From an uncultured Saprospiraceae bacterium (lineage in GTDB: Bacteria; Bacteroidota; Bacteroidia; Chitinophagales; Saprospiraceae), in contig CALIAU010000007.1 of the NCBI GenBank assembly GCA_938045585.1, positions 124,001 to 188,000 on the forward strand: a stretch of DNA of 64,000 nucleotides, given 5' to 3'. Both the position numbers and the translations under genes were made by a program. Below are positions 20,775 through 49,822 of this stretch, one piece after another; within the stretch, counting starts at the first letter, position 1; every line of letters begins with the position of its first letter. The notes under the pieces were generated by a model. That model worked only from the letters and a program-made list of their open reading frames with translations. It did no database searches and had not been told where the DNA came from.

Positions 20775-21260
20775 ATGCTTCATAAAGAGAATTCATATGT
20801 CGGTTTTTTAATGAGTCCGCTGGGTATCCTAAAGCTTAGCGCCTCAGAGGACGGGCTGACCTCTGTTAGGGTCGTTGATCATATAGCTGAAGCAAAAGAG
20901 AATGAGCACATTCGTTTTCATAAACGACAACTTAAGGACTACTTCAGTAAACGGACTGCATTGCAAGCCAAGCATTTGGACCTGTCTGCTCATTCTGAAT
21001 TTGATCGTAGGGTTTGGGGTGCCTTGATAGATATTCCCTTGGGTACTACAAAGTCATATAAAGAGCTTTCTCTTGCGATCGAAAACCCTAAGGCTGTTCG
21101 GGCTGTTGGAACGGCAAATGGTCGTAATCCGATTCTTATTATCATCCCTTGCCATAGAGTGATTGGAAGTAATGGGAAGCTAACTGGATTTTCTGCTGGC
21201 ATCGAGAAAAAAAGAGCACTGCTTCTTCATGAGCGGATTTTGCCGCAAGAATTGTTTTAG
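20775..21260 (+). CDS. ogt: Methylated-DNA--protein-cysteine methyltransferase (Ogt type)
   Basis: Suicide repair protein that takes the methyl group from O6-methylguanine onto its own cysteine. 161 residues. The active site is IIPCHRVIGS with acceptor Cys126. The helix-turn-helix that enters the minor groove is seen in TTKSYKELSLAIENPKAVRA-VG with the arginine finger, and NGRNPI binds the flipped base. It is a stand-alone gene, so it is Ogt rather than Ada. Its stop is followed directly by the octad repeat tract. Confidence 0.95.
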   Translation: MLHKENSYVGFLMSPLGILKLSASEDGLTSVRVVDHIAEAKENEHIRFHKRQLKDYFSKRTALQAKHLDLSAHSEFDRRVWGALIDIPLGTTKSYKELSLAIENPKAVRAVGTANGRNPILIIIPCHRVIGSNGKLTGFSAGIEKKRALLLHERILPQELF

Positions 21261-21273
21261 GGTAGGGTGGCAC

Positions 21274-21321
21274 GGTTTCCCGGTTTCATGGTTTCATGGT
21301 ATCACGGTTTCGTGGTTGTTC
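21274..21321 (+). repeat. Octad-word tandem tract (GGTTTCAT type)
   Basis: Six 8-bp units in register: GGTTTCCC, GGTTTCAT, GGTTTCAT, GGTATCAC, GGTTTCGT, GGTTGTTC, ending at the first hairpin of the structured element. It starts 13 bases after the ogt stop. Scattered words of the same type occur at about 25253-25304 in reverse orientation. Confidence 0.75.
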
Positions 21322-21450
21322 GCCTTTGGTGAAGGGTATCAGGGCTTGCGTGAGTGGTGGTAGCAGGCCGATAGGCGTCCGAAGGACCAAGCTGCGGACG
21401 ACACGACCCTAATTCTGGGTGCGTACGCAGACGGAATTAGGGGCACGCCC
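21319..21450 (+). repeat. Structured intergenic element, copy 1
   Basis: About 132 bp. A 5' hairpin TTCGCC-TTT-GGTGAA (21319-21333) is followed by GCGTG (21348-21352), which can pair with CACGC (21444-21448) to close a larger domain. Inside lies a 50-nt core nearly identical to copy 2 at 49746-49795 (from TGGTAGCAGGCCGA to GGACGACACGACC), with mini-hairpins GCC-GATA-GGC and GTCC-GAA-GGAC or the alternative CGTCCG/CGGACG. A variable hairpin CCTAATTC/GAATTAGG (around 21408-21441) carries the palindrome TGCGTACGCA (21420-21429) in its loop. Whether it is transcribed is unknown. I do not recognise a named RNA family. Confidence 0.75.
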
Positions 21451-21547
21451 AAATAATGAGAATAAGAAATCAATGTGTTATTATTGAAATCGGAGTTGGT
21501 GTACGAGGATTATATTCCCTGCGCTTAAGAGTAGCTGAAACGTGCGA

Positions 21548-48894: not shown

Positions 48895-49503
48895 TTGCTT
48901 CCATTTCAAGATTATATAGCAGATCCTGAAAACCTACTACCCTATAATGGTATTGCTCACTATCACGGAAAACTTTTTCCCCATGAGGAATCTATACATT
49001 TATGCCAGACACTCTTTGAAAGTATTCCTTGGGAAAATGATGTGGTCCACATGTTTGGTAAACGCATAGTCACAAAAAGAAAGGTCGCTTGGTATGGGGA
49101 CGAAGCTTATGCATATAAATATTCCAACAGCACGAAACACGCACTCTCTTGGACCAAAGAGCTCTTGCTTATTAAACAACAGATCGAAACCGTCAGTAAG
49201 GAAACATATAATTCATGCCTGCTTAATCTCTATCATGAAGGTGAGGAAGGCATGGGCTGGCACAGCGACGACGAAAAAGAACTAAAACCCAATGGAGCTA
49301 TTGCTTCTATTAGCCTAGGCGCTGAGCGTAAATTTTCCTTTAAGCATCGAGAAACGAAAGAGACAAAATCTGTTTTATTAGAACATGGCAGTTTGCTCGT
49401 TATGAAAGGAGAAATACAAACGCATTGGTTACATGCATTGCCTAAGACTAAGAAGGTGAAGGAAGGGAGGATTAATTTGACGTTTAGGACGATTCTGAAA
49501 TGA
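48895..49503 (+). CDS. AlkB-like Fe(II)/2-oxoglutarate dioxygenase
   Basis: 202 residues, starting at the TTG at 48895, three bases after the previous stop. Family motifs: MGWHSDDEKELKPNGAIASI with the HxD iron ligands, LGAERKFSFKHRETKETKSV, GSLLVMKGEIQTHWLHALPK with the distal His, and the 2-oxoglutarate-binding RINLTFRTI. AlkB members remove alkyl groups from bases. It carries the small alkylation-repair type fold but is not linked to ada here. The octad word GACGAACT starts at the stop codon. Confidence 0.92.
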   Translation: MLPFQDYIADPENLLPYNGIAHYHGKLFPHEESIHLCQTLFESIPWENDVVHMFGKRIVTKRKVAWYGDEAYAYKYSNSTKHALSWTKELLLIKQQIETVSKETYNSCLLNLYHEGEEGMGWHSDDEKELKPNGAIASISLGAERKFSFKHRETKETKSVLLEHGSLLVMKGEIQTHWLHALPKTKKVKEGRINLTFRTILK

Positions 49504-49689: not shown

Positions 49690-49822
49690 TTCGCCAATGG
49701 CGAATCCTCGCGTGAGTGGCCTGCCTGCGTGCGCACGCAGGCAGGTGGTAGCAGGCCGAAGGCGTCCGAAGGACCTAGCTGCGGACGACACGACCTGCCT
49801 GTGCAACAGGTAGGGCACGCCC
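49690..49822 (+). repeat. Structured intergenic element, copy 2
   Basis: About 133 bp. The 5' hairpin is TTCGCC-AAT-GGCGAA (49690-49704), with GCGTG at 49710-49714 able to pair with CACGC at 49816-49820. A perfect 26-bp palindrome, half-site CCTGCCTGCGTGC (49720-49745), is inserted relative to copy 1. The shared 50-nt core runs from TGGTAGCAGG (49746) to GACACGACC. The variable hairpin is CCTGCCTG-TGCAA-CAGGTAGG, different in sequence from copy 1 but base-paired in the same place. It lies 74 bp from tRNA-Asn. Confidence 0.78.

Follow-up and report, generated by a model that had tools for sequence, protein, structure and literature searches.

A dispersed three-way-junction element of Bacteroidota with Flavo-1 as its central arm

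Introduction

Two intergenic segments of the same build lie in a 64,000-nucleotide stretch of contig CALIAU010000007.1 from an uncultured Saprospiraceae bacterium, a stretch that we call the window. An earlier note, made from the letters alone, described them as a two-copy element of no recognised family whose stems have changed in sequence while the pairing was kept, and proposed selection for structure, either in RNA or in single-stranded DNA as at a transposition end. The question raised by this locus is therefore what such an element is: a functional RNA, a mobile element, or a repeat that belongs to a family already named.

Results

The two copies in the window

When the sequence was re-read, both copies were found where they had been reported, with the order of parts and the base changes correctly described: each has a closing helix GCGTG/CACGC, a nearly identical core of about 50 nt and a variable hairpin ahead of GGGCACGCCC. 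At E ≤ 0.01 the 64-kb window holds exactly two copies, 21348-21450 and 49710-49822, both on the + strand. With its ends set at the closing helix, P1, copy 1 is a structured element of subtype A that scores 91.2 bits with model R1 and 73.8 bits with the broader model R2. The 5' side of P1 (GCGTG, 21348-21352) pairs with CACGC at 21444-21448, as read from the sequence and from the covariation of P1, and the 3' side is followed by CC and AAAT, as also reflected in the 3' flank counts. Next comes the P2/P3 arm (21354-21404, + strand), which alignments, covariation and the Flavo-1 matches of relatives identify as the part equivalent to Flavo-1 (RF01705). It consists of P2 (GTG/CAC), a 1x1 G.A mismatch, two base pairs, a GTA/GGA internal loop, and P3 with the hairpins P3a and P3b. 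The variable hairpin P4, CCTAATTC...GAATTAGG, occupies 21407-21442 of the + strand according to sequence, alignment and covariation.

Copy 2 is also of subtype A (92.6 bits with R1, 48.2 bits with R2) and carries an extra 26-nt palindrome, CCTGCCTGCGTGCGCACGCAGGCAGG, seen in both sequence and alignment, nested in its P2 arm at 49720-49745 (+ strand). This extra palindrome is common to several copies in the window's own genome (G000). Sequence and folding place the P4 of copy 2 at approximately 49794-49813 on the + strand. Palindromes of the CCTGCCTGC...GCAGGCAGG type are dispersed in G000, nested at various positions within element copies (49720-49745 in the window; locus L217) and also free-standing, at two places in locus L026. 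An imperfect short tandem repeat (GGTTTCATGGTTTCATGGTATCACGG...) occupies about 21275-21316 of the window, immediately 5' of copy 1.

The 5' hairpin that had been listed as the first part of the element is present at both window copies, as TTCGCC-TTT-GGTGAA in the flank of copy 1 (21319-21333, + strand) and as TTCGCC-AAT-GGCGAA in the flank of copy 2 (49690-49704, + strand), but it is not a feature of the family, in which upstream stems are about as frequent as in control windows. Specifically, perfect stems of at least 5 bp occur in the 32 nt upstream of 12/43 copies and in 85/465 control windows (p = 0.15), and stems of at least 6 bp in 6/43 copies and 35/465 control windows (p = 0.14).

A conserved fold with covariation in every helix

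Against dinucleotide shuffles, the RNA folding z of the + strand is -2.90 for copy 1 and -3.11 for copy 2; the signal of the - strand is weaker (-0.86 and -1.75). The fold is a three-way junction, in which P1, with five pairs, closes a P2/P3 arm with a 3x3 GNA/GRA loop and the variable hairpin P4.

Alignment A2 contains 20 of the 24 copies found by blastn in G000, four long or truncated copies being omitted. In the structure derived from it 96.1% of cells are paired and 14 of 31 pairs show two-sided changes, figures that are not independent evidence by themselves given that the structure comes from the same 20 sequences. Alignment A4 is broader, with 49 diverse matches, and was fitted to R1, which biases it toward the R1 structure. 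For a reduced structure of 22 pairs it shows two-sided changes in 21, with every helix covarying, and 95.2% of its cells are paired, compared with a mean of 72.5% after shuffling and 30-51% after sliding. P1 itself is seen as GCGTG/CACGC, GCATG/CATGC, GCGTA/TACGC, GCGAT/ATCGC and other versions. It is fully complementary in 70/70 rows from other genomes, in six types, where the rows were found with models that reward P1 pairing, one of 71 (L063) failed a filter that asks for GC...CCC ends, and L365 and four loci of the class whose flanks were short were omitted.

The unpaired parts are also constrained. The 1x1 mismatch in A4 is G.A in 32/49 copies and A.G in 9/49, and the fixed positions of the 3x3 loop, G-N-A facing G-R-A, are G in 46, A in 47, G in 49 and A in 49 of the 49 copies. 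The base 5' of P1 is a pyrimidine in 43/43 copies of G000, 12/13 of its genus mate G001 and 64/70 others, and is never G, while the 3' flank is A-rich both in G000 and in the copies of other genomes. Pair cells of the type G.T outnumber A.C by 43 to 5, or by 16 to 5 without the conserved U.G, and this excess indicates the + strand as the one that folds. The selection for structure that had been proposed from two copies is now strongly supported, by the two-sided changes in all helices among the 49 copies, by the pairing of P1 in the 70 rows, and by stem changes at two orthologous sites, to which we return below.

A large family confined to Bacteroidota in our searches

The count of two copies was much too small. 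In G000, blastn with copy 1 gives 24 matches, R1 gives 40 (E ≤ 0.01) and R2 at least 88 (E ≤ 0.01; 150 of 287 candidates scored). The covariance-model search of relatives that the earlier note had suggested thus found further copies, in the same genome and in other Bacteroidota genomes. Several core subtypes coexist in G000 (L077, L079, L081 and L083; L075 and L215); cores of subtype A are 81-96% identical to copy 1, with widely different P4 hairpins.

Under stricter filters and E ≤ 0.001, R1 matched 4/60 genomes (G000, G001, G006 and G010). A pattern scan of named genomes, with phyla taken from the record titles, yielded 77 loci, and R1 matched 25/29 of those from Bacteroidota and 0/48 of the others at E ≤ 0.01, the best match outside Bacteroidota being L162 at E = 0.8. 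Matches come from records of Flavobacterium, Fulvivirgaceae, Chitinophaga and Saprospiraceae, among others. Across the class of the window, which we take to be Bacteroidia, R2 at E ≤ 1e-4 found the element in at least 120/395 genomes (G000 counted) and at least 58/197 genera, both lower bounds with nine candidates scored per genome, and in 0/30 non-Bacteroidota genomes at E ≤ 0.01 with 130 candidates scored in each. Six single-contig genomes of the class hold 1 to 12 copies each (E ≤ 0.003), so high copy number is not universal. Plasmids gave no blastn match to copy 1, and viral contigs gave a single pattern hit (L214) with no R1 match up to E = 5. The window copies are thus members of a dispersed, gene-less Bacteroidota family, mostly of about 75-190 nt.

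Flavo-1 is the middle arm of the element

The statement that no named family accounts for the element holds for the window copies taken alone. Rfam at the gathering threshold finds only two tRNAs in the window and no Flavo-1, and over 21250-21520, which contains copy 1 only, it finds no match up to E = 10. However, the family as a whole is joined to Flavo-1 through intermediates. The Rfam model of Flavo-1 has 76 positions and a gathering cut-off of 42 bits; locus L100 exceeds this with 46.2 bits, L109, L119 and L137 match below it, and 18 further loci, most with family elements, give no Flavo-1 match in the gathering search. Among 20 element loci from five other genomes, 16 pass the cut-off at the element itself (these come from G272, G152, G194 and G115), three score 30-35 bits, and one, from G251, has no match.

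At E ≤ 0.01 the Flavo-1 model finds nothing in G000 or G001, 87 matches in G037 and 7 in G010. In the reverse direction, R2 matches several loci of G010, G014, G047 and G048 and 0/7 Flavo-1 loci from G037, so some copies of Flavo-1 seem to be without the full junction. Flavo-1 is, then, the middle P2/P3 arm of a larger element, and the window copies lie at one extreme of the range, below its cut-off.

Flavo-1 was described in 2010 as a probable RNA that is not cis-regulatory and occurs in Bacteroidetes, with no function given (PMC2864571, as far as the available text goes). The available portions of a 2021 transcriptome study (PMC9723704) likewise assign it no function, and none is given in those of PMC9029176. 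A literature text search with motif strings gave no paper on the present element among the matches listed, judged by their titles.

Genomic context

Most elements are intergenic by rough ORF calls. Overlap with an ORF occurs for 10/40 copies in G000 and 3/15 in G001, and these ORFs are probably spurious for the most part. Copy 1 lies 3' of a 6-O-methylguanine DNA methyltransferase gene (20775-21260) and copy 2 lies 3' of a gene for a 2OG-Fe(II) oxygenase (48895-49503) of PF13532, which we take to be the family that holds AlkB. Both window copies are thus downstream of genes of the alkylation-repair type, and other copies adjoin ruvA and a polymerase gene of the impB/mucB/samB family; these are post hoc observations and perhaps due to chance. 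At L241, L064 and L165, from two Saprospiraceae genomes and one of Fulvivirgaceae, the element precedes the gene of an S1-domain protein on its upstream side.

The copies tend to have the G-rich strand of their surroundings (26/36, p = 0.011, with 7/43 copies of skew up to 0.01 omitted), a tendency confounded by gene strand. We surveyed 63 distinct ORFs around 41 copies in G000, of which 60 were scanned and three omitted. They are mixed housekeeping genes, several of them for translation, and it is our post hoc impression that translation and DNA-repair genes are more frequent than expected. A conserved gene neighbour was considered and rejected: an all-against-all comparison of the flanking ORFs gave only small clusters, of four members at most, which we judged to be near chance by rough estimate rather than calculation.

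These surroundings bear on one alternative, that of a repeated functional RNA. Here the copies would be transcribed, alone or within the transcript of a neighbour, and their fold would bind a host protein that affects mRNA stability, termination or translation; they would move occasionally and be kept for their usefulness. The G.U-rich pairing on one strand is in line with this, as are the translation genes just mentioned, post hoc as they are. At L119, L137 and L160 (two Flavobacterium records and one Bacteroidetes record) a near-identical element lies 41-42 nt upstream of a gene that we read as lepA-like, with a promoter-like site, TATATTTGC, just ahead of the element. In a count that excludes the window copies there are more convergent than divergent sites (25 vs 14), and an earlier, cruder count leans toward sites downstream of a co-oriented gene (24 vs 13 in G000, 11 vs 3 in G001). 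However, where both neighbouring genes point the same way, the former count shows hardly any orientation bias, with 30 copies along the genes and 24 against them, and many copies would therefore be antisense. The promoter motif TAnnTTTG is not enriched upstream of the element in G000 (1/43 copies vs 6/212 controls), which argues against the functional-RNA alternative and led us to reject an independent small-RNA gene with its own promoter in that genome. Few gene neighbours are common to different genera, and the Flavo-1 copies of F. psychrophilum are reported, in the available part of PMC9723704, to be sense or antisense to transcribed regions, with many outside them.

Sites kept between two genomes of one genus

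For nine of 15 elements in G001 we could locate the corresponding place in G000, and at seven of the nine an element is present there, three times of another subtype. The subtype is the same at L064/L046, L073/L037 and L072/L048, and also at L074/L050, where the element is inverted relative to the one common flank. Another subtype in the same orientation is found at L066/L215 and L069/L216, both matched by R2, and at L057/L217, identified by a weak R1 match (E 0.015) and by eye. The G000 places that correspond to L068 and L087 of G001 are empty, though located less precisely than to the base, so that loss in G000 is as possible as gain in G001.

At two of the kept sites the core is conserved while the stems have changed on both sides: one pair (L037/L073) lies upstream of ruvA, the other (L046/L064) upstream of the gene for a ribosomal protein S1-like protein that has six S1 domains. 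These changes, together with the seven occupied places, argue against simple decay after insertion and resemble upkeep in place, and they keep the functional-RNA alternative alive, although exchange between copies could also produce the pattern. We consider a functional RNA rather unlikely as the explanation.

Evidence for mobility

The clearest sign of movement comes from genome G441. A query with one unit of about 232 bp, which has the element core inside it, gives 55 matches there, many of them partial. Among the 23 copies with both ends readable, the units end in near-inverted sequences of the GGRTCAANCGGAA type (GGATCAATCGGAA... and ...TTCCGCTTGACCC), and the flanking 8-mers are identical at a mean of 6.87 of 8 positions, whereas the highest mean among 500 permutations was 3.78. 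These near-inverted ends and 8-bp target duplications, seen in G441 only, are a transposon-type signature. The idea of a transposition end thus survives in a changed form, with the whole fold inside a mobile unit.

In other genomes the size of the shared unit varies. Copies at different places in G272, G194 and G334 (one pair in the last) are 78-98% alike, and the likeness covers the element and at most about 17 bases per side, so the fold is near the unit of dispersal there. The common stretch in G152 extends beyond the element by another 18-67 nt on the 5' side, and the common unit is clearly larger than the fold in G178, G231 and G441; the fold is therefore not the unit everywhere. Two loci of G178 (L291 and L276) have tandem copies, repeated about every 130 bp.

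One could suppose from G441 that the core always travels in an inverted-repeat transposon with 8-bp duplications, as a MITE moved by a DDE transposase, and that G000 holds old copies with decayed ends. The larger units in G231 and G178, the latter with possible inverted ends as judged by eye, fit this account. It is nevertheless improbable: an offset scan of 43 copies in G000 found no target duplications above permutation, the copies in G272, G194 and G334 share so little beyond the element, and the compared genomes have the core in common but not its surroundings. With duplications in G441 and no signal of them in G000, the G441 transposon may merely have captured the core. The analysis brought up no enzyme that moves the element, which also counts against mobility as its general mode of spread.

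Repeats moved by RAYT enzymes

A REP-type repeat mobilised by a RAYT/TnpA-REP (HUH/Y1) enzyme is a further candidate, suggested by the dispersed, intergenic and structured character of the copies. A search for Y1_Tnp (PF01797) in 11 genomes found matches in 10, namely G000 and nine of ten others with the element or Flavo-1, and the available part of PMC6006769 describes a Bacteroidetes subclass of RAYTs, 2.6, that is flanked by atypical structures. It was because of this subclass that we searched the RAYT flanks. Nine RAYT loci whose flanks were read, two of them in G000, carry other palindromes and not the element; the two Y1_Tnp (RAYT-like) genes in G000, at L025 and L026, each have their own repeat type at the flanks.

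The element (E ≤ 0.01) occurs within about 1.5 kb of only 2/30 Y1_Tnp loci and is adjacent at neither, the Flavo-1 model finds nothing at 10 such loci up to E = 0.1, and G014 has the element with no Y1_Tnp match. The REP/RAYT mark described in the accessible text of PMC6006769 is a 5' GT[AG]G immediately at the base of the hairpin; the element shows a partial likeness, with GTAG/GTGG inside the P2 arm beside an internal loop rather than at the base of the full structure. The RAYT/REP version of a transposition end is not supported, either as the origin of the element or, as the earlier note had allowed, as its full explanation, and we regard it as very improbable.

Discussion

The reading that best fits these observations, to which we give a probability of roughly 0.55, is that of a non-autonomous mobile element that is preserved through its fold. 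It would spread among sites within genomes, since closely similar copies occur at unrelated places, some orthologous places are empty, and the units of G441 have transposon-type ends and target duplications. The conservation of the fold would be accounted for if the folded strand, RNA or single-stranded DNA, is recognised by a trans-acting factor that copies, inserts or maintains the element; that this factor recognises the fold itself we infer from the conservation. The folded RNA may in addition act at some host genes, a second role that would be compatible with this reading.

A more specific form of the mobile-element reading takes Flavo-1 to be one arm of an element that is defined by nothing but its fold. 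What is copied would be the three-way junction with P1 as its boundary, which a putative enzyme acting on the folded RNA or on a single DNA strand would insert between a pyrimidine and A-rich DNA, leaving no target duplication; the element would have spread through Bacteroidota and could be picked up by other transposons. We put this form forward tentatively and as rather less than probable, and it is made slightly less likely by the G152 copies, which share more than the fold.

For Flavo-1, the result is a fuller architecture, more genomes, defined ends and, in one lineage, direct evidence of mobility. Two things become testable: an enzyme that recognises the fold, and an effect on the host of the copies kept near housekeeping genes.

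Several known systems resemble the element in part. The bacterial repeats bcr1 and BOX are likewise structured, dispersed and intergenic, with a conserved secondary structure; they belong to another phylum, and we compare them by description only. REP/BIME sequences with their RAYTs are also short, structured, dispersed and intergenic, but a REP is a simple hairpin while the element is a three-way junction. MITEs share the near-inverted ends and 8-bp target duplications of G441; the element differs in that G000 gives no sign of duplications, that the copies of G272, G194 and G334 show no more extended ends in common, and that one strand carries an internal fold which is conserved and covaries. 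The closest likeness is to Flavo-1, which is also dispersed and multi-copy in Bacteroidota. Judged by eye from the column counts of A4 and the consensus line of Rfam, the arm of the element has the same succession of 3 bp, a 1x1 mismatch, 2 bp, a 3x3 GNA/GRA loop, G-C pairs and a variable hairpin. In contrast to the Rfam model, however, the element has both P1 and P4, and in the subtype of the window its arm ends in two hairpins.
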